Positions 8,953 to 46,549 of a stretch of 46,549 nucleotides of DNA are shown here, one piece after another; within the stretch, counting starts at the first letter, position 1, and the number at the start of each line of letters is the position of its first letter. Below the pieces are notes generated by a model. It was not told the DNA's origin and did not search any database. It was given only the letters and a program-made list of their open reading frames with translations. Both the position numbers and the translations under genes were made by a program. The DNA comes from a virus: positions 1 through 46,549 of the IMG/VR virus record IMGVR_UViG_3300050016_000026; one strand, given 5' to 3'.

Positions 8953-10107
8953 TCACGTAGCCGGGTACATTTGACCCAGTGACTTGACCACTACAGCAGC
9001 TTTCTTGTCAGATGTCAAGGCTACGGTTAATCCAGTGTCAGGAATGTAGGCGTACTCCTTCACAAGTTCCTGGGCGAAGCCGCTGATCTTCTCCATCTGC
9101 GCCGGGGAACGTAGTTCACGCTCGGTGTACGCCTCGTCGCCGAAGCGGGTTGGGAACAGGGCCGCGGCCTCAGGCTTCCACACCCGGTCAGCCTTCTTGC
9201 GCACCAGCTTGATCCGTTCGAAGTCAGTAGCGCCAGCACTCAGGCGTCGGAAGGCTTCACCCTCGAGAGCCTTGATATACTGCTTGGCGTTTGCCAGCAG
9301 CGGGTAGTCGCGGTCGATGTCACTGTCCTTCAGGTCCACTATCTGCCGCGGGTCAGCATGGGCTACGGCGCCGAACAGGCCGACCATAAGGGGGCACACC
9401 AGCTTGGCTGGGCAGAAGATGCACCAGTCGCCTAGCTGCAGCCCCTTATCGTGCTGTGTGCGCACCATAGCCGGCTTCAGCGTGCCCTCGGCCCACGCTG
9501 TCAGGTCTTCCGCCGACAGTTCGAACGTGCGGACTACGGGACCGGCCCAGGTGATGCGCGGCTGTACGATGGTGCAGCGGACCCACTCCACCTCGGGGTG
9601 CAACAGGAGCATGCCGTAGGCGTAATACAGGGCCTGCGGGTTCCACTCCACATCGACGTAGACACCGGCTCCATACTTGAAGTCGATCACGTCGAGGATG
9701 ACATGATCTGTGTGCCCATCCTCGTTGTCGTTGGGTAGTCGGTCGGTACCGACAACTGCGAAGTCCACAGTGCCGAAGAAGCCGGGGTGGAACTCAGGCG
9801 CCGCCATCGGGTACTCAATGTAGGGAATACCGTATGAGCGGCGGACGCCACCGAGTGTGGTGAGGGGGCGGGCTACGTCGAGGAACACCTGGATGGCGTC
9901 CATCATTTCGGGATCATCAGCCACCTCCCAGGCATCGAGGTGTTCGGTGAGGCAGCGCGCTAGGGCAGCGTGGGCTTGGGTGCCCTCAGCGCGGTACTCG
10001 GGTTCAGCTTCCTCCTCCCACTTGAGGGTCTTGATCAAGGCGACGGAGCCGGGACAATTCATCCACCTATGTGCGCCCGAGGCGCCAGTGTCGCTATGGC
10101 CGGTCAT
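8953..10107 (-). CDS. Cas4/RecB-like PD-(D/E)XK nuclease (DUF2800)
   Basis: 384 residues. An N-terminal HRWMNCPGS (Cys18) and a later CIFCPAKLVC cluster (Cys229, Cys232, Cys238) would ligate a 4Fe-4S cluster, as in Cas4 and AddB. Nuclease residues fit EGTQAH at 41-46, GTVD (Asp115), DFK (Asp142, Lys144) and Gln158. This is the DUF2800 family, common in phage replication modules beside DUF2815. It would act as a recombination exonuclease partnered with the ssDNA-binding protein. It has a strong leader with AAAGGAG and a start 10 nt from the protease gene's opposite side. The C-terminal 130 residues are helical. Confidence 0.82.
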   Translation of the reverse strand: MTGHSDTGASGAHRWMNCPGSVALIKTLKWEEEAEPEYRAEGTQAHAALARCLTEHLDAWEVADDPEMMDAIQVFLDVARPLTTLGGVRRSYGIPYIEYPMAAPEFHPGFFGTVDFAVVGTDRLPNDNEDGHTDHVILDVIDFKYGAGVYVDVEWNPQALYYAYGMLLLHPEVEWVRCTIVQPRITWAGPVVRTFELSAEDLTAWAEGTLKPAMVRTQHDKGLQLGDWCIFCPAKLVCPLMVGLFGAVAHADPRQIVDLKDSDIDRDYPLLANAKQYIKALEGEAFRRLSAGATDFERIKLVRKKADRVWKPEAAALFPTRFGDEAYTERELRSPAQMEKISGFAQELVKEYAYIPDTGLTVALTSDKKAAVVVKSLGQMYPAT

Positions 10108-10130
10108 GGTAGTTCTCCTTTGGTAAGCGC

Positions 10131-10170
10131 GGCCGGCAGAGGCCTTCTAGGGGCTATCACTCTGCCGGCC
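10131..10170. other. GC-rich intergenic hairpin
   Basis: Perfect 10-bp inverted repeat GGCCGGCAGA / TCTGCCGGCC with a 20-nt loop in the 92-nt gap upstream of the DUF2800 gene. No U-tract adjoins it. The remaining bases of the gap hold only the leader with AAAGGAG. Confidence 0.55.
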
Positions 10171-10199
10171 AGGAGGTTTCCCGTTTCGAGCGGGCGCTC

Positions 10200-10781
10200 C
10201 TACTTCAGTTCAGCGAGCTTCTTGACGAACAAAGCACGAAGCTCGGGGGTAGTCAAGCCCGTCAATCCGACATTGGGCTGTCCGTGAACCTCGGCGAGCA
10301 ACTGGCGAACCCGAAGGCCACCATTGTCACCGAGCTTGCGGGCTACGACATTGCACTGGGTGCTGATGTCCTTGTCGGATATGACCGGCAGGACTTCCTT
10401 ATCGGTCAAGAAGTCTTCCTCAATCTCAACCGACGAGGATGGCGCCGTAGTGGTAGCTCCACCAATCGGAACCTCCTCGGATTGAGCCTTCTGGAAAGCT
10501 GCCTGCTCCTCAGAGTGTTTCTCGGCCTTGGTCTTGCCCTTCTTCGGCTCCTTGACGACAGTCTTGGCAGCGATTGCCGTAACCTGCTCGTCGGTAAGAG
10601 CAGCGTCCGAATTGGGGGACGGTGCGCCTAGGAGCTTGGCGACTGCGTTTAGGGCAATTCCTTGGGCCAACGCCAAATCATCGGCCGCATCGAAGCTGAT
10701 AGTAGCCTCAGCCTTGGCACTGTTGTAGTCACCCAGGTTCTTGGTGCGACCGTAAGTGACGCTTCCACCTTGAATTGACAT
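10200..10781 (-). CDS. Hypothetical early protein, acidic middle region
   Basis: 193 residues from the ATG at 10781, which has AAGGAG at good spacing; a longer in-frame start lies across the hairpin and is rejected. The N-terminus (about 1-60) is beta-rich with GSVTYGRTKN, a pattern I associate with uncharacterised phage replication-region proteins. A Lys-rich stretch at about 80-95 is followed by a Ser/Thr/Glu linker and a helical C-terminal domain (about 125-193). Its position next to the nuclease and SSB genes suggests a DNA-metabolism accessory. It ends in TAG. Confidence 0.7.
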   Translation of the reverse strand: MSIQGGSVTYGRTKNLGDYNSAKAEATISFDAADDLALAQGIALNAVAKLLGAPSPNSDAALTDEQVTAIAAKTVVKEPKKGKTKAEKHSEEQAAFQKAQSEEVPIGGATTTAPSSSVEIEEDFLTDKEVLPVISDKDISTQCNVVARKLGDNGGLRVRQLLAEVHGQPNVGLTGLTTPELRALFVKKLAELK

Positions 10782-10807
10782 GGTAATTCTCCTTGTTGTT
10801 GTCAGGT

Positions 10808-10841
10808 GACCGGCTTGGCTTAGACTACCACCAAGCCGGTC
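10808..10841. other. GC-rich intergenic hairpin
   Basis: Perfect 11-bp inverted repeat GACCGGCTTGG / CCAAGCCGGTC with a 12-nt loop, 12 nt after the stop of the upstream gene. The downstream early-strand sequence is A/C-rich rather than U-rich. Confidence 0.6.
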
Positions 10842-10853
10842 GGGCACGTACCT

Positions 10854-11087
10854 CTACGCGCCGGTTGTTGGTTGCGGGACTGCTGCGGGAGCAGGCACCA
10901 GCGTAAGAGCCGCGGCATCAGCCGAAGCAATAGCGGGTGTTGCACTGACGACCTGTGTGGCTGCAATCTGCTTGATGCCTATGGCAACGATCAGGTCATG
11001 GATGGCAGTGGCGACTTCCTCGCTCACGTAAGCCTTGAGCTTCGAGAATGCGGCCTCCACTGCGGCGATGTCTGTTTGAACGGTCAT
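10854..11087 (-). CDS. Small Ala-rich hypothetical protein
   Basis: 77 residues from the ATG at 11087, which follows AAGGAG; a longer start has no support. The first 45 residues form an amphipathic helical region. The rest is low-complexity Ala/Pro/Val/Thr and probably disordered. No family recognised. It ends in TAG before the hairpin at 10808-10841 and follows a 250-nt gap. Confidence 0.6.
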   Translation of the reverse strand: MTVQTDIAAVEAAFSKLKAYVSEEVATAIHDLIVAIGIKQIAATQVVSATPAIASADAAALTLVPAPAAVPQPTTGA

Positions 11088-11337
11088 GCTACTCTCCTTG
11101 GTTAGAGGTTGCCGCGGGTATGGTAACCCCAGGAACCTCGCGATGTTCCTTGCTTTGAGGGGTCCCAATCACCGACTGGCCCTCACCGGCCCTGCCGGCA
11201 GCAACTTCAACACACCTTCCCTTCCTAAGCTCCCTGGTACCCACCTAAGGGTCTACTGCTGCGCCAGGGTCACCTCTTGGATCACATCGGTTGGCGTTTG
11301 TCAATAGCCGCCAAATAGGTGGGGTGGACAGCCTGGA
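11088..11337. other. 250-nt early-strand gap without a supported gene
   Basis: This stretch holds the leader of the 77-residue gene, short imperfect inverted repeats (GAGGTT/AACCTC near 11105-11140; CCCTGG/CCAGGG near 11231-11268) and the first copy of a 56-bp tandem repeat. I see no reading frame with a credible start, no tRNA and no convincing promoter. The TTGACA-like boxes inside the 56-bp repeat lack a matching -10. Confidence 0.6.
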
Positions 11338-13866: not shown

Positions 13867-15259
13867 CTTCGTCTTCCTTCTCTACGCTTTCAGGGATGTA
13901 CCAGGTACGCTTGCCGCCATCGTCACCCTGCTCGAACACATAGTCAGCGAACAATTTCTTAACCCCTCGATTGAGGGCCTGGGTCACCGTGTTGATTTGA
14001 GGCAGTTCAGGATTGTCCGACACCATCTGCTCAGCCAAAGCCTTGGTAAGCACAGGCTTGCCCTTCCACAGGTGCCCGAGCGCGATGTGGATGGCGGTGC
14101 GGTTGACGCCGTTGCTGTTGCCCTTGCCCGCCTCAGACCATGCCAGTACTTCGCCGTATGGCGTAGCCACGACTGCAATGTAGAATGGTGTACTCTCGAA
14201 CCCACGATCCTGACGAGTGAACAGGCGAGCGTCACCCACCTCCGAAAGGTTTGAGTTGGTGTCGAAGTTGCCTTCGGCTGAGTTGTTGCCGCGTAGCCCG
14301 CGGCTGGCATCCTTGCCTACGTGGGCAATCGTCCAGCAGGAGCAGTTGAAGACGCGCATAATCTCTCGCGTCAGGTCCTCGTAGAGGTTCATGGTGGCGG
14401 CACTGTTCTCGTCGTTGGCGCCGAGGGCTCGGGACATGGTGTCGACGATGATCAGCGCCGGCCGCGTGGTCCCTATCTTGGCGCGGATAGCGTCGACGTA
14501 GGACTGTAGCTCAGTGGGGTTGCCAATCGGCGGCACCTTGGGGACGTAGAACCAATTGTCTTTGACGTTGGCGCGCTCTAGCTTGCGAGCCTTCAGCCAG
14601 GCGTTGACGCGCTTCGACAGGAAGCTGGTGCCTTCACCCGACAGGTAGACCACGGGGCCCGAGCGCAGAACCTTGTACTTATCCAGCACGGGGATACCGG
14701 CGCAGATCGATAGCGCCACCTCGAGGGTGAACAGGCTCTTGCCCTTCTTCGGCGGCCCGTAGATCACGAAGTTTTCGTCTTCGCTGACGATGTTTTCGAC
14801 AAGCCAGGTCGGCGGCGGCTGCGAGAGGGTTTCGTCGATGTCCCAGACCGGGATAAGGTCCGAAGGTCGGGCAGTGGATGCGGCGACGGTCGTGTAGATT
14901 TCTCCAAGCACGACCGGCTTAACTCCTGCAGCCGAAAGGCCGGTATATCCGCCATCACGAGCAAGGTGCAGAAGCGATCCATATCCCAAACCACCTTCTT
15001 TCGGTGGCATCGTGCGCCAGATCGTATCGAGGTCACCGTGGTACGCCTTGTCGATTTTGTCTTTGAGGAGGTCATAGCGGGCACCATCCCTTCCTGAGTT
15101 GGTATTTTGAACGGCAGCTATCAGATCACGCCAACCTGTGCGATTAGTCGGCTTGATATGCTCCAACAGTGTGACCAGGTGATCCCACGCCACAGGAGCG
15201 CCGACGAGGGGCGACACCTCGATGGGCGGCAGATCAGGGAGGTTATCGTAGACGCTCAA
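13856..15259 (-). CDS. RepA-like AAA ATPase / replicative helicase with PriCT-like N-terminus
   Basis: 467 residues starting at TTG 15259, within the end of the primase gene. Residues 25-108 resemble a primase C-terminal (PriCT-2-like) helical domain. The RecA-type core has Walker A GPPKKGKS at 168-175 and Walker B LIIVD at 269-273, as in RSF1010 RepA-like hexameric helicases. The C-terminal 100 residues look like a winged helix. With the separate primase just upstream it would form a split primase-helicase. It is the best candidate for the replicative helicase; no DnaB-type protein is visible. Confidence 0.82.
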   Translation of the reverse strand: MSVYDNLPDLPPIEVSPLVGAPVAWDHLVTLLEHIKPTNRTGWRDLIAAVQNTNSGRDGARYDLLKDKIDKAYHGDLDTIWRTMPPKEGGLGYGSLLHLARDGGYTGLSAAGVKPVVLGEIYTTVAASTARPSDLIPVWDIDETLSQPPPTWLVENIVSEDENFVIYGPPKKGKSLFTLEVALSICAGIPVLDKYKVLRSGPVVYLSGEGTSFLSKRVNAWLKARKLERANVKDNWFYVPKVPPIGNPTELQSYVDAIRAKIGTTRPALIIVDTMSRALGANDENSAATMNLYEDLTREIMRVFNCSCWTIAHVGKDASRGLRGNNSAEGNFDTNSNLSEVGDARLFTRQDRGFESTPFYIAVVATPYGEVLAWSEAGKGNSNGVNRTAIHIALGHLWKGKPVLTKALAEQMVSDNPELPQINTVTQALNRGVKKLFADYVFEQGDDGGKRTWYIPESVEKEDEDFS

Positions 15260-34891: not shown

Positions 34892-36214
34892 ATGGTCAAC
34901 GCAGCATTCAAAGACAGCCTCGACATCGCAAACCGGTCGCTCGATCACCTCGGGCTGCCGCACATTTTGTCGATTGGCGAAGACAGTACCCGCTACCAGG
35001 TCCTGTCTGGTGTCTACGACAAGTTGCGCCAGTACGAACTGCGCCGCAACATCTGGCGCTTCTCGAAGCGCAAGTGTTTCATGCGGCCCATCGACGTCAA
35101 CACGCGCAAGCTCGCGCCTGCGCTGTGGAACTCGACCTACACCTATCAGCCTGGCGCCATCGTGCAATGGAACAACGGCGACCTCTTTGTTACCTTCGAG
35201 ACGGACAACGTTGGCAACGACCCCTCTCTCACTGACCACTGGGAGGCATACTATGGGTCACAGGCAGCCCTTCTCTATGATCCGACGATCAGCTACTACG
35301 AAGGCGAACTGGTCTACATGGCAGGCACTCTGGCGGGAAGCTTCATCGTCTACCTATCGCTGGTCAACGCCAATATCGCGACCGGGGTTCCGGTCACGGG
35401 CACTACTCCGAATGTCGCTACAGCTTGGAGCGCGACCGACACCTACGACCTTGATGACATGTCATACTACGCCGGCCTGCAGTGGCGCAGTACCATCGCG
35501 GTCAACCTGAACAACACACCGGCTGTGGCGCCGAGTGATTGGGCAATCGGGGTCACCTACGGTGCAGCGGCTACTGCCACCGGCAGTGATGGCTATGTCT
35601 ACACTTCCATCGCCGGCAGCAACCTCGGCAATGATCCGGTGGCTGACACCACGCACACCTATTGGACACAGGGCGTTCCCTACGCTTGGTCGCGCGTTCC
35701 GGCGCTGCAGCCGAGTGGCAACACTTGGCTGCCTCTATTCTGCGGACTGAAGCCGCTGGGCATCGACAGCCTGGGCATGGCTATCCCCGCGGCCATCGGA
35801 CAGGACAACAACTACTTCCTTCTGCCGGCCGGCTACCTGCGCGAGGCCCGGCTCAATCCTGACCTGTCGTTGGCATCGAATGATCACCACGTCTACGGCG
35901 ACTACATCATGTCGACTGACAACAACATCCTGTTGGCCTACGCCGCCGATATGACCAAGGTCGTTCGCTTCGATACTATGTTCTGTGAAATGCTGGCGGC
36001 CACGATGGCTTACCAGACTTGCGAGCGGCTGACGCAGAGCACCAGCAAGCAGGGCGCCTGTCTGCAGGCGTACAAGACAGCCGCCAATGAAGCGCGTGAG
36101 GTCAACAGCATCGAGGTCGGTACTCAGGAAGCAGACATGGACGACTGGATTGCAGTGCGCGAGCGTGCCGCTGGGGGTGGAGGCGGTACTGGCCTCGGCT
36201 ATGGTGGCTGGTAA
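34892..36214 (+). CDS. Tail tubular protein A (T7 gp11-like) with inserted binding modules
   Basis: 440 residues, about twice the length of T7 gp11. The N-terminus (DIANRSLDHLGL, then LRQYELRRNIWRFSKRK) and C-terminus (KVVRFDTMFCEMLAATMAY, ending Gly-rich) form the gatekeeper fold. Residues about 85-290 are an insertion of CBM5/12-like modules with Y-x-GD/L-V...Y...N...P...W spacing, including TGSDGYVYTS at about residue 230. It binds below the portal and joins tube protein B. The insertion probably displays carbohydrate-binding domains on the tail. Confidence 0.85.
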   Translation: MVNAAFKDSLDIANRSLDHLGLPHILSIGEDSTRYQVLSGVYDKLRQYELRRNIWRFSKRKCFMRPIDVNTRKLAPALWNSTYTYQPGAIVQWNNGDLFVTFETDNVGNDPSLTDHWEAYYGSQAALLYDPTISYYEGELVYMAGTLAGSFIVYLSLVNANIATGVPVTGTTPNVATAWSATDTYDLDDMSYYAGLQWRSTIAVNLNNTPAVAPSDWAIGVTYGAAATATGSDGYVYTSIAGSNLGNDPVADTTHTYWTQGVPYAWSRVPALQPSGNTWLPLFCGLKPLGIDSLGMAIPAAIGQDNNYFLLPAGYLREARLNPDLSLASNDHHVYGDYIMSTDNNILLAYAADMTKVVRFDTMFCEMLAATMAYQTCERLTQSTSKQGACLQAYKTAANEAREVNSIEVGTQEADMDDWIAVRERAAGGGGGTGLGYGGW

Positions 36215-37932
36215 TGCCGGGCATCAGCAATGCGCAAACAGACTTCCGTGGTGGATTGTGGTCGCCGTCTGCGCAAGGGCGCTTTGACGACCCTCGCTAT
36301 AAGACGGCACTCAATGAAAGCTTCAACGGCTTCCCTGTTCAGGAAGGTCGTTGGAACCGCAGACCCGGATTTCGAGTGGCTAACCACACTCGCGGCTACC
36401 AGCCTGCGCTGCTCCATCCCCTGTCAGTGATCGCTGCCCCTTCCCACGCCCTGGAATTTACCAGCGGCCACATGAGGCTGTTCCAAGGCGCCAACATCGT
36501 CATGGATGACGAGCGTCAGGTTGTCTCCTCATTCTCTACGGCTAACCCGACTGTCTGCACGACCAGTGCCCAGCACGGGTGGAACAATGGTGACGGTATT
36601 ATCTTCAGGGTGGAGGGGATCACCTCTGCCGGCATCATCAGCGATCTAGCCCCCATCCTTCAGCGTGAGTTGTCGATTGCCGTCATCGACGCATTCTCTT
36701 TCTACGTCTATAACTCGGAGACAGGTCGCGGCCTCGACGGCAGCTTGATCGACTTCGACAACACTGACGTGCAGCTTTCTGTAGGCCGCATCACCGACTT
36801 CTCGACGCCCTACGTGAATGACGATTGGGCCGGCGTCGACATCGCGCAGAACGACACCGATGCGTTCCTGCTGCACGGCAGCTACCAACCTCAGGACCTC
36901 ACCATCAAGACAGCGCAACAGCCCTTCACTGTTGTACCGGCAGAGTTTCAGGATGGTCCCTACCTCGACCAAATCAGCGGTGTCGTCGCCACAGTGACGC
37001 AGCCGGCAACATGGTCGAACAGCCACACGTACAACAGTGGAGATACGTCGACTGGCAGTGATGGCTATGTCTACACCTCCTTGATTGTCAGCAATCTGAA
37101 CCATGACCCCACCTCTGATGATGGCACCCATTGGCATAAGGACAGCACCGCGCTGACTGGCGTCATCAATCTGTCGTTCTCCTACACTGCGTGGGATGCG
37201 ACCATTGCGTACTCGATTGGCGACTTCGTAGGTGTGCCAGGTACAGCCTTCGGCTATCAGAGTTTGATCGCCTTAAACCAGAACAATAATCCTGCCGCCT
37301 CGCCCACTGCATGGAAGCAGGTGTCCAACCTAACCGGCTTCGCCAACAAGGGCGCCGGCATCACTGAGGAAGACATCGGCCGCCACATCCGTATCCAGTC
37401 GGAGCCGCCGCTGTGGCTGACCAACACCACCTACGCAGTGGGTGCCAACGTCACGATGGGCACCAGCATGACTGACCCCAGCCGGCAGTATTGGACCTGT
37501 ATCTCAGCCGTCACCAAACAGGTTGTAGCTATTGGCGTCACCGACACCAACCAACCCGGCATCGACCCCACACTGTGGGTGCCGAACCCCAATGCTATGC
37601 GCTTCACCTGGGGCGTGATCGTGCGCTCGGGCCCGCCTGTGCAATCGTCTTCAGTTGCCGCATGGACTATGCCGGGCTACACGTTGACACAGGATTGTGG
37701 TCGCTTGAATGCGGATGGCACCCCTAAGGCCCCGTACACCTATGCCTCCCCCATCAATGACCTGTCGCAGGTAGGGGCTTGCTGGTATCCGAACTGGTTG
37801 CTCGACCACGGTGAAATAGGTAGTACAGGTGGTACAATCGGTGACGCCGATTTCCCACAATCTGGGAGTTTCAGCACTGCGGCTATCGTCTACATCAACG
37901 TGGCTGTGCAGGGGTCAGGCACCTTGATGTAG
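36214..37932 (+). CDS. Tail tubular protein B (T7 gp12-like), N-terminal part ending at an in-frame TAG
   Basis: 572 residues from the ATG overlapping the previous stop. The start (NAQTDFRGGLWSPSAQGRFD, then EGRWNRRPGFRV) is the classic tube-B N-terminus. Residues about 265-440 hold three CBM5/12-like inserts, the first with TGSDGYVYTS as in tail protein A. The frame is stopped by TAG at 37930 and then continues open for 708 more codons (to 40056) with clear tube-B C-terminal sequence. The TAG is the only amber at the end of a late-strand frame. Readthrough, a mutation or a sequence error would each explain it. Confidence 0.85.
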   Translation: MPGISNAQTDFRGGLWSPSAQGRFDDPRYKTALNESFNGFPVQEGRWNRRPGFRVANHTRGYQPALLHPLSVIAAPSHALEFTSGHMRLFQGANIVMDDERQVVSSFSTANPTVCTTSAQHGWNNGDGIIFRVEGITSAGIISDLAPILQRELSIAVIDAFSFYVYNSETGRGLDGSLIDFDNTDVQLSVGRITDFSTPYVNDDWAGVDIAQNDTDAFLLHGSYQPQDLTIKTAQQPFTVVPAEFQDGPYLDQISGVVATVTQPATWSNSHTYNSGDTSTGSDGYVYTSLIVSNLNHDPTSDDGTHWHKDSTALTGVINLSFSYTAWDATIAYSIGDFVGVPGTAFGYQSLIALNQNNNPAASPTAWKQVSNLTGFANKGAGITEEDIGRHIRIQSEPPLWLTNTTYAVGANVTMGTSMTDPSRQYWTCISAVTKQVVAIGVTDTNQPGIDPTLWVPNPNAMRFTWGVIVRSGPPVQSSSVAAWTMPGYTLTQDCGRLNADGTPKAPYTYASPINDLSQVGACWYPNWLLDHGEIGSTGGTIGDADFPQSGSFSTAAIVYINVAVQGSGTLM

Positions 37933-37940
37933 ACGATAGC
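37882..37940. repeat. Perfect 17-bp inverted repeat containing the TAG
   Basis: Arms 37882-37898 and 37924-37940 are exact reverse complements, with a 25-nt loop. The in-frame TAG (37930-37932) is in the right arm, opposite CTA of the left arm. A chance repeat of this length at this spacing is improbable in 46 kb. Confidence 0.9.
37930..37932 (+). other. In-frame amber codon within the tail tubular protein B frame
   Basis: TAG in the same frame as both halves of the gene. Between it and the first possible downstream start (GTG 38008) 25 sense codons remain open (TIAPNAQVWTRNAGYSG...), so translation across it would give a 1280-codon frame. Confidence 0.9.
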
Positions 37941-38007
37941 TCCGAATGCACAGGTATGGACGCGCAACGCCGGTTACTCAGGCGCGCCTAGTAAACCTGT
38001 CTACACT

Positions 38008-40056
38008 GTGACTTCTGTCGGCAACCAGCTTCAGGAAGGTGTGCCCGGTACTCCGATTGGAAACATGACCGGCGGCGCCGGCCTGTCTGCCCTGTTCCGT
38101 CCGGGCACGCTCACCACCTTCGCCAGCAATCCCGGCAACACTGGCTACGCCGGCCTGCAGTTGCTCACCCCGGCATCTATCTCGTCGGGCCGCATCTACC
38201 CTGTCGACATTGCTCCCGGTGGCGCCAGTGCATTGGGCTTCACCCTGAACGGCTTCACGCGCGCGATCACAGTCAACATGTGGGCTAAGGCTACGCTGCC
38301 GGCCAACGAGCATGATGGCACTCTGCTCGGGTCCACCACTGTTGCCGGCCCGGTCACAAGCTCGGCGCCCATCGTTGTCGCATCCACTGATCCTACAACT
38401 TACTCGTATGTGTGGTTCGAGATAGTTGTAACGTCCGACTTCGACACGGTCGCCAGCTTCGAGCCCTTCGGCGGCACCTTCCGCTTCGGTCCCTTCTCTC
38501 AATTCTCGGTGGCGGCCTCCAAGATTTCGTTCTTCACCGACGCCAACAATCCCGCCGGCGCGCAGATTGGTGTCCAACTGAAGGGTGACCCCCTGCTCTA
38601 CACCGGGCTCGTCACCAACTGGCTGCTCGGGCGCTACAACAACCATGAGCCGAATTGGCCGACACACGGTGCCTTCTTCGAAGACCGTCTGTATCTGTCG
38701 TCCGGCGTCACCGCGCACGTTGATGCAAGTTGTGCCAACGGCAACCTTCTCGATATGGCGCCGACGCTGCCGGATGGGACTATCACTGATGCAAGCTCAC
38801 TGAGCTTCGACCTGATGACGGAGAGTAATAGCCCGATCAACTGGCTCAAGGCTGAAATACACGGCGTCCTGGTCGGCACCACCGCGCAAGAGTTCATCAT
38901 CCACTCTCCGGGTGAGACTGGGCCGATCACGCCTACGGCTCGAGCGGCTGATCCTTCTGGTGCATTCGGCACCGCTCCTGTGCTGCCGATTGCCACTACC
39001 ATTGGGCACGTCTTCGTGCAGAAGAACAAGCGCGACGTCTACGAACTATTCCGCGACGTCTACTCCGGGCAACTGACCTCGGTCACGATGTCGGAGTTTT
39101 CGCAGGGGCTTGCCAATCCTGGCCTAGTCCGTCTGGCCTACCAGCGCGGGCTCAGCCCGATCATTTGGGCGCAAACTGAAGATGGGCGCCTGATCGCCAC
39201 CACCTATCGGCGTGACCACAGGTTCAGCTATCAGCCGCCTACCTTCAATGGCTGGTCGCGGCATGCACACGGCGCCGGCCGCAGCATCATCAGCCTGTGC
39301 ATGAACAGTGGTGTAACTGGCGACCTGGATGCACCGACGATCATTTCGCAGGGTGAAGATGGCAAGTGCTACGTCGAGGTCATGGGTGACCTGATGGTGG
39401 ACACCGACAACGTGTACGCCAGCAACTACCTCGACAGTTCCATCACGCCGCACTCGGCCAGCTTCTATTCCGGCGGTGTCTACCTCTACGGCCTCTGGCC
39501 GCTTGAGGGCAAGACCGTCAAGGTTCTGCTGGCCGGCCTCGACTGCGGCAGCCAGTACCCTGTCCTCAACGGTACTGTGACTGTGCCCTTCAAGAGCGAC
39601 AGTGGTGGCTTGCTCACCCAGCGCTACCTGACCGAGCTTACTGGCATCGGCCAGGACTTCGCCGACCTGACTGTGATGATCGACGGCCAATGCCGGGCCC
39701 CGTGCCTGGTGGGCTTCGACTTCACTAGCCAAGGCCAGCGCCTGCGCCCGATGGAAGCTGCTGAGACTGGCAAGCAGAACGGGCCCGCCCTCGGTGCCTT
39801 CCGGCGCAACAACAAGTTCGCCATGTTGGCTACCAACACCCGCAACGTCCTGATCGGAACCGACTTCGGCCGCATGCACAAGGCCCAGTTCGCATCCCCT
39901 GGTGGCCGTGTCTACACACCTACAGAGTTGTGGAACGGTATCTTTTGGGATACTATAGATGATGACAGCACGGTTGACGGCATGATCTGCTGGCAGTCGT
40001 CTGGTCCCTTCCCGGTCAACATCAGCGCCATCGGCGGCTATGTGGAGACGCAGTAA
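38008..40056 (+). CDS. Tail tubular protein B, C-terminal part
   Basis: 682 codons counted from GTG 38008, though the open frame begins right after the TAG at 37932. It contains the conserved gp12-type core: EDRLYLSSG at about 215-223, FVQKNKRDVYELFRD near 335, and QRGLSPIIWAQTEDGRLIATTY near 375. No ribosome site precedes GTG 38008 or ATG 38065, so independent translation is doubtful; it is best read as the second half of the same tube protein. It ends in TAA overlapping the next ATG. Confidence 0.82.
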   Translation: MTSVGNQLQEGVPGTPIGNMTGGAGLSALFRPGTLTTFASNPGNTGYAGLQLLTPASISSGRIYPVDIAPGGASALGFTLNGFTRAITVNMWAKATLPANEHDGTLLGSTTVAGPVTSSAPIVVASTDPTTYSYVWFEIVVTSDFDTVASFEPFGGTFRFGPFSQFSVAASKISFFTDANNPAGAQIGVQLKGDPLLYTGLVTNWLLGRYNNHEPNWPTHGAFFEDRLYLSSGVTAHVDASCANGNLLDMAPTLPDGTITDASSLSFDLMTESNSPINWLKAEIHGVLVGTTAQEFIIHSPGETGPITPTARAADPSGAFGTAPVLPIATTIGHVFVQKNKRDVYELFRDVYSGQLTSVTMSEFSQGLANPGLVRLAYQRGLSPIIWAQTEDGRLIATTYRRDHRFSYQPPTFNGWSRHAHGAGRSIISLCMNSGVTGDLDAPTIISQGEDGKCYVEVMGDLMVDTDNVYASNYLDSSITPHSASFYSGGVYLYGLWPLEGKTVKVLLAGLDCGSQYPVLNGTVTVPFKSDSGGLLTQRYLTELTGIGQDFADLTVMIDGQCRAPCLVGFDFTSQGQRLRPMEAAETGKQNGPALGAFRRNNKFAMLATNTRNVLIGTDFGRMHKAQFASPGGRVYTPTELWNGIFWDTIDDDSTVDGMICWQSSGPFPVNISAIGGYVETQ

Positions 40057-40706
40057 TGGCTAGCACAGACTTCGGCTCCTCCTTCTCTGACTTCGGTACA
40101 GGTATCAGCGACTTGTTTGGCGCTGCAGGGAGTAGTGCGGAAGCGGGTGGCTTTACTCAGGCCGCCGCCGCCGAGCGTTCGGCCGCATCTATTTCGCAGG
40201 CAGCTACCAGCATCGAGGTTGCCGCCAATGACCGCAAGACTGAGAAAGCTGTCGGCCAGAACCAGGCTGAGAGTGGTGCAGCCGGCTTCAAGTTCACCGG
40301 CACCGGTGTGAACGTAGCCGAGGAGAACCAGCGTCAGGGCTCGATCAGTGCAGCGATCACTGAGGACAACGGCGCCATCAATACCCTGGGCTACACCGAG
40401 AAAGCCAATAAGGACACCGCTGACGCCTCGCAGGCTTCCTCCGCGGCAGCCGGTCAAGGCATCGGCGGTCTTATCAGTATTGCTTCCGGCATCTTTGGGC
40501 TGTTCTCTGATCGTAGGCTGAAGGAAAACTTCATACGTGTCGGCGTCGGCCCCAACGGCAAGAACTTGTACGAGTTCAACTACCTTGGACAGAAGGGGCG
40601 CTGGCGCGGTTACTTCGCGCAGGACCTCGACATGAGTGACGTGGTTGACGCGGTTGGCTTCCTGAGCCCGATCAAGCCCGAGGATAGGAGCGTTCAAGTT
40701 GGCTAA
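40056..40706 (+). CDS. Internal virion protein (gp14-like position) with S74-like C-terminus
   Basis: 216 residues, TAATG-coupled to the tube gene. Residues 25-150 are Ala/Ser/Gln/Glu-rich helix typical of small internal/ejection proteins. Residues 151-205 (FSDRRLKENF, then LYEFNYLG and GYFAQDL) look like the start of the peptidase S74 / intramolecular chaperone domain normally found on tail spikes. The catalytic Ser-Lys of the motif (SDRRLKE) is present, though the domain is short. The combination is unusual. Confidence 0.72.
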   Translation: MASTDFGSSFSDFGTGISDLFGAAGSSAEAGGFTQAAAAERSAASISQAATSIEVAANDRKTEKAVGQNQAESGAAGFKFTGTGVNVAEENQRQGSISAAITEDNGAINTLGYTEKANKDTADASQASSAAAGQGIGGLISIASGIFGLFSDRRLKENFIRVGVGPNGKNLYEFNYLGQKGRWRGYFAQDLDMSDVVDAVGFLSPIKPEDRSVQVG

Positions 40707-46393: not shown

Positions 46394-46549
46394 ATGTCTG
46401 GACCGATACTCACTACCAATGGCCTCATTCCTCAGCCGCAGGGCGCCAGCAATCTGGCCGCTGCCCAATGGGCTGTAGCTGCCGGCACCGCAGACGTGCT
46501 GCAGGCTGCATACTCGTCGCCGAACACTGCGCTCTACGATGGCCTGATC
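46394..46549 (+). CDS. Tail fibre, 5' part (continues at position 13)
   Basis: 52 codons from ATG 46394 to the window end, then continuing in frame at base 13 of the window after the 12-base overlap. It encodes the N-terminal adaptor, which should attach the fibre to the tail, and the beginning of the first 86-residue repeat (QWAVAAGTADVL). The leader from the promoter is about 45 nt. GAGGCATTGCG before the ATG can act as ribosome site. Confidence 0.8.
   Translation, partial: MSGPILTTNGLIPQPQGASNLAAAQWAVAAGTADVLQAAYSSPNTALYDGLI
46538..46549. repeat. 12-base terminal overlap with positions 1-12
   Basis: GATGGCCTGATC ends the window and also begins it. Merging the copies keeps the tail-fibre frame and its repeat spacing; leaving both would add four residues (DGLI) to the repeat. 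This marks a circular map. Confidence 0.85.

Follow-up and report, generated by a model that had tools for sequence, protein, structure and literature searches.

The gene for tail tubular protein B (TTPB, the nozzle protein) in this phage is interrupted by a single in-frame TAG, and the codon patterns around it indicate that the TAG probably originated in the inverted copying of a neighbouring sequence, whether natural or technical, rather than as a programmed signal. We refer to the whole stretch of DNA analysed, a virus record from IMG/VR with 46,549 bases, as the window. The TTPB frame extends on the plus strand from an ATG at 36214 to a TAA at 40054–40056, and its 1281 codons (1280 residues and the terminal TAA, with the TAG counted as a residue) contain one internal stop, at 37930–37932. 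The preliminary description had placed this TAG between ...GSGTLM and TIAPNAQVWTR with the frame open on both sides, and we find the same. It terminates an N-terminal ORF of 572 aa (36214–37932) and is followed in the same frame by a C-terminal half of 707 aa (37933–40056) that comprises most of the nozzle core; a coding signal is present in frame on both flanks of the stop.

The two halves match consecutive segments of the PHROG 376 profile in the correct order (the N-terminal half at profile positions 2–249 with E = 3e-26, and the C-terminal half at positions 261–593 with E = 6e-39), which indicates that they belong to one tail protein. A structural model of residues 213–1280, in which the TAG was read as a residue, is of moderate confidence (pLDDT 64). 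Foldseek with this model gives podovirus tail or nozzle chains for all of the best 17 matches (E = 6e-21 to 3e-11), of which the first are nozzle chains of the T7 gp12 type (E = 6e-21 to 1e-13), although TM-scores are low (0.25–0.40). The earlier assignment of both halves to tube B is thus well founded, and by profile and predicted fold the two sides of the TAG are a single TTPB. The gene lies between those for tail tubular protein A (TTPA; 34892–36214, plus strand, PHROG 394) and an internal virion protein (40056–40706, plus strand, PHROG 6121/418). Among PDB sequences, the C-terminal stretch encoded by 37933–38634, the only part used as a query, has no significant match.

Two other features of the window can be noted here. 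The sequence GATGGCCTGATC is present at both of its ends (1–12 and 46538–46549) and an ORF appears to run across them, which makes a circular or circularly permuted record probable. The segment at 36937–37500 contains a weak repeat similar to carbohydrate-binding module 5/12 (TTPB residues about 264–319), and in many relatives (L094–L144) the repeat is found with 40–57% identity in the TTPA-like ORF directly upstream of TTPB; the sharing of this repeat suggests module exchange between adjacent tail genes.

The TAG lies within a segment that is peculiar to this phage and that the preliminary description did not recognise. Two scans, one based on an alignment and the other on a single relative, together yielded more than 130 TTPB loci, of which the nearest clade (L014, L094–L141 and L150) has a core identity of about 30–38%. 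In this clade TTPB is one unbroken ORF of about 1010–1190 aa in every complete case, and there are about 50 loci in all with both halves in a single ORF. In the relatives a motif W-[TS]-W-G-K-I continues directly into T-S-L-S-N-I; in a 29-row alignment residues 470–599 have a counterpart in 0 of 27 relatives, where I469 adjoins T600. The in-frame insertion, specific to this lineage, thus occupies 37621–38010 on the plus strand (130 codons including the TAG), and is situated at the joint between the N-terminal domain and the propeller half of TTPB. It is coding-like in the frame of the gene (z = 4.3 against Markov shuffles), with one stop in that frame and 3–7 in the others, and its GC3 is lower (0.61) than in the flanks (0.77 and 0.73), as expected of an acquired domain. 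Searches of phage records, IMG/VR, bacterial and archaeal genomes, PHROGs, Pfam and Rfam detected, within their sensitivity, no homologue of the insertion, and in IMG/VR no close relatives of either half, the insertion or the TTPA were found. AlphaFold prediction of the insertion alone is of no use (pLDDT 30), and in the full model the segment is unmodelled. Beyond the insertion 81 of 129 conserved columns are retained, compared with 36 of 48 before it, and the C-terminal half has no clear decay.

Some of the relatives have other TTPB arrangements. The protein is encoded by two ORFs with a TGATG overlap in L007 (12109–14549), in the pair L019 (4708–6884) and L021 (5174–7350), and in L147 (5998–10565); these cases apparently belong to separate lineages with different joints, and the nozzle thus appears to have been split recurrently into two coupled polypeptides. 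In L016 (4684–9294), L144 (5476–10083) and L145 (2731–7185) TTPB is about 1,490–1,540 aa long; close to the C-terminal end of its core it carries an insertion of some 600 aa, and L147 is split at that point.

The TAG also lies within a hairpin, likewise overlooked previously, and no short-range inverted repeat in the window is stronger. Its arms (37882–37906 and 37916–37940, plus strand) are 25 nt long and 92% matched, and 17 bp are perfectly paired, with 37924–37940 being the exact reverse complement of 37882–37898. The RNA folding z-score is −4.4, compared with −1.2 for the next segment of the gene, and a perfect 17-bp stem with a loop of up to 60 nt is expected 0.0002 times per window. Perfect stems of at least 14 bp occur three times in 1.5 Mb of related loci plus the window, and there is no second one in the window. 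The probability that the only premature stop should fall by chance in the 59-nt hairpin is about 59/46549 (~1 in 800), and we therefore consider that the stop and the hairpin belong together. Among the related loci, L130 has a perfect 20-bp stem with a 4-nt loop (14881–14924) at the very end of the contig, which looks like a foldback artefact, and a perfect 15-bp stem in L117 (918–971), within an open coding frame and without a stop, is a possible second template-switch footprint.

The two arms of the hairpin differ markedly in their codons. The five full codons of the 5’ arm (GCT ATC GTC TAC ATC) are ordinary for this genome and score +4.1 bits for coding over antisense, which is the 64th percentile of coding windows and is reached by 0.7% of antisense windows. 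The 3’ arm, which contains the TAG, scores −13.2 bits, and with the TAG omitted it still scores −5.0, below 99.8% of coding windows and below every window of the insertion outside the hairpin. Because the 5’ arm is coding-like and the 3’ arm antisense-like, the copying appears to have run from the former to the latter. Both mismatches of the 25-nt arms adjoin the loop, at which position the original sequence of a foldback primer would be preserved. On these statistical grounds the most likely origin of the 3’ arm is a template switch that copied the 5’ arm in inverted orientation and left the TAG as a by-product; no relative carrying the insertion was found, and hence no pre-event sequence differing in one arm. 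Template switching is reported to perfect imperfect inverted repeats in Escherichia coli with lacZ reporters (PMC7202029), to generate a perfect hairpin in RNA genes in one event (PMC8794818), and to alter codons in coding genes of yeast (PMC8604942).

We propose the following course of events. An ordinary podovirus TTPB would have gained the 130-codon segment at the joint of the N-terminal domain and the propeller, and within that segment a polymerase would have switched template at an imperfect inverted repeat, copying 37882–37898 in inverted orientation onto 37924–37940. A perfect hairpin would result, and reverse complementation of the codon junction GTC|TAC would place a TAG in frame. The TAG would then be a nonsense codon that arose by accident, through recent mutation of the sampled phage or as a product of in vitro steps or assembly, and not a site of programmed recoding. 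Two points do not sit easily with this proposal: the remainder of the insertion, too, has somewhat unusual codons (GC3 0.61), and a nonsense codon fixed in an essential gene would be lethal to a phage whose genome is apparently circular and complete, unless it is tolerated in some way, which argues for an artefact, a minor allele or some form of rescue. TTPB is essential in known podoviruses, its C-terminal half here is not clearly decayed, and no other conserved gene was found broken in the window, as might signal poor sequence. The stop should therefore be of very recent date, missing from the natural population, or rescued by some means; the lack of clear decay and of other broken genes fits a recent or artificial event.

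Programmed readthrough, suppression by a tRNA, a nonsense mutation and a sequencing or assembly error had all been listed in the preliminary description, and it is the last two that we favour, in the form of an inverted copy of the neighbouring 17 nt. Its leaning towards readthrough, with a structural isoform made in fixed ratio, is not borne out: when the codon is compared across related phages, about 50 have neither a stop nor the segment at this site, the hairpin overlaps the stop, and no suppressor tRNA is present in the window. Stimulated decoding of the UAG in some passages of the ribosome, to give a long nozzle protein alongside a short N-terminal one, would agree with the shared frame of the halves, the coding signal on both sides, the lack of clear decay in the C-terminal half and the coincidence of the TAG with a strong hairpin, and the A that follows the stop makes a fairly weak termination context. 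We nevertheless regard it as unlikely, because neither the stop nor the segment is conserved in any relative, a product of 572 aa would be without most of the nozzle core, and the asymmetry of the arms is explained by copying and not by selection for a hairpin. Known readthrough stimulators lie downstream of the stop. There is no significant fold downstream of the TAG, as the only significant one contains the stop itself; a ribosome that has the UAG in its A site spans the entire 3’ arm, so the stem would be melted and could not serve as a downstream stimulator. That the hairpin should be a working recoding element nonetheless, recruited together with a new nozzle domain and passing some ribosomes despite the stop in its stem so that two nozzle forms are made in a set proportion, seems to us quite improbable. 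Reassignment or suppression of TAG throughout the genome, by a phage or host suppressor tRNA, would accommodate a single in-frame TAG in a long essential gene, and we consider it the most doubtful of explanations: the window has no tRNA genes, suppressors included, and only TTPB is plausibly restored when TAG is read through. With TAG read as glutamine no other recognised gene is lengthened, apart from a fusion of two neighbouring ORFs at 10104–11168, and TAG is a normal stop that terminates ordinary genes of this genome and TTPB itself in at least 10 relatives. Reassigned phages hold many in-frame TAGs, as in phAss-1 with 41 such ORFs (PMC10607447).

Removal of 37621–38010, as a self-splicing intron or a bypassed element that drops out no later than translation and leaves the TAG unread, would restore exactly the layout of the relatives. 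This is very unlikely given that the TAG is the only stop within the segment in the frame of the gene, that the other frames have 3–7 stops, that the codon signal is 4.3 standard deviations above chance, and that the length, divisible by three, is what an in-frame domain requires. No group I or II intron or other Rfam family matches the segment at E up to 1; we ruled out an intron on the coding signal of the segment, and for bypass the sequence offers no landing codon that would keep the frame. An intein can presumably be dismissed too, since the ends of the segment do not fit those of inteins. If instead the TAG ended a genuine N-terminal subunit and the C-terminal half started independently, TTPB would consist of two polypeptides, as it does in L007, L019/L021 and L147, of which L019/L021 are split near the same joint, and a GTG at 38008–38010 lies at the edge of the insertion. 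Those splits all have overlapping stop and start codons and a change of frame, however, and in the window the halves share a frame without overlap, the first start is 75 nt beyond the stop, and the sequence between is coding-like in frame. The absence of a credible start for the second half, as described previously, is upheld by the Shine-Dalgarno energies of the in-frame candidates, which are 0 for GTG 38008, −4.3 for GTG 38041 (only 3 nt away) and −3.1 for ATG 38065, with a control median of −2.5; the last of these, the first in-frame ATG after the TAG (38065–38067), is surrounded by sequence homologous to the central part of the protein in relatives. A split gene is thus improbable. Within the inverted-copy explanation there is the narrower reading that a foldback in amplification, end repair or assembly wrote the copy and that the natural phage has a sense codon, which we consider quite possible, if short of an even chance. 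Foldback artefacts with inverted repeats are documented for library preparation (PMC13141652), the L130 contig ends exactly in its 20-bp stem, and an essential gene is broken while the rest of the genome is intact; set against this, the site is internal, the frame is preserved, several reads would be needed to form the consensus, and the window holds no second such stem. Overall, we would give a purely technical origin about one third of the weight and a real but non-programmed mutation one third, with one tenth or less for readthrough.

If the TAG did arise by inverted copying, lone in-frame stops in phage structural genes should be checked for an enclosing hairpin before readthrough is invoked, and comparison of the codons of the two arms with coding and antisense expectations offers a cheap test. 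A stop that does exist in nature would mean that the phage somehow rescues an essential nozzle protein, which would be worth knowing.

Comparison with known systems places the gene in the T7 gp12/TTPB nozzle family (PHROG 376), which it resembles in the sequence and predicted fold of both halves and in its order after TTPA, and from which it departs in the 130-codon insertion and the premature TAG. Coat protein readthrough of the Q-beta type likewise involves a structural gene whose frame stays open beyond an in-frame stop, but there the stop is a conserved UGA, whereas here it is a UAG that is not conserved, lies within a hairpin arm, and yields a short product without the core fold. Translational bypass in T4 gene 60 (reviewed in PMC5009743) also has a stop codon in a hairpin within a coding sequence; the TTPB gene has no matched landing codon that would keep the frame, its flanks already share a frame, and both sides are coding-like. 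Phages with reassigned TAG, such as Crassvirales and Lak phages (PMC11210395, PMC10607447), also have in-frame TAGs in structural genes, but in the window there is only one such gene and no suppressor tRNA, and TAG is an ordinary stop. With quasipalindrome-associated template switching (PMC7202029, PMC8604942, PMC8794818) the differences are that we infer the event with the pre-event sequence absent, and that what it produced is a nonsense codon, in a gene for a structural protein of a phage; the likeness extends to a 17-bp perfected repeat, residual mismatches beside the loop, one arm with the character of an inverted copy of the other, and a change of several codons within a coding gene.
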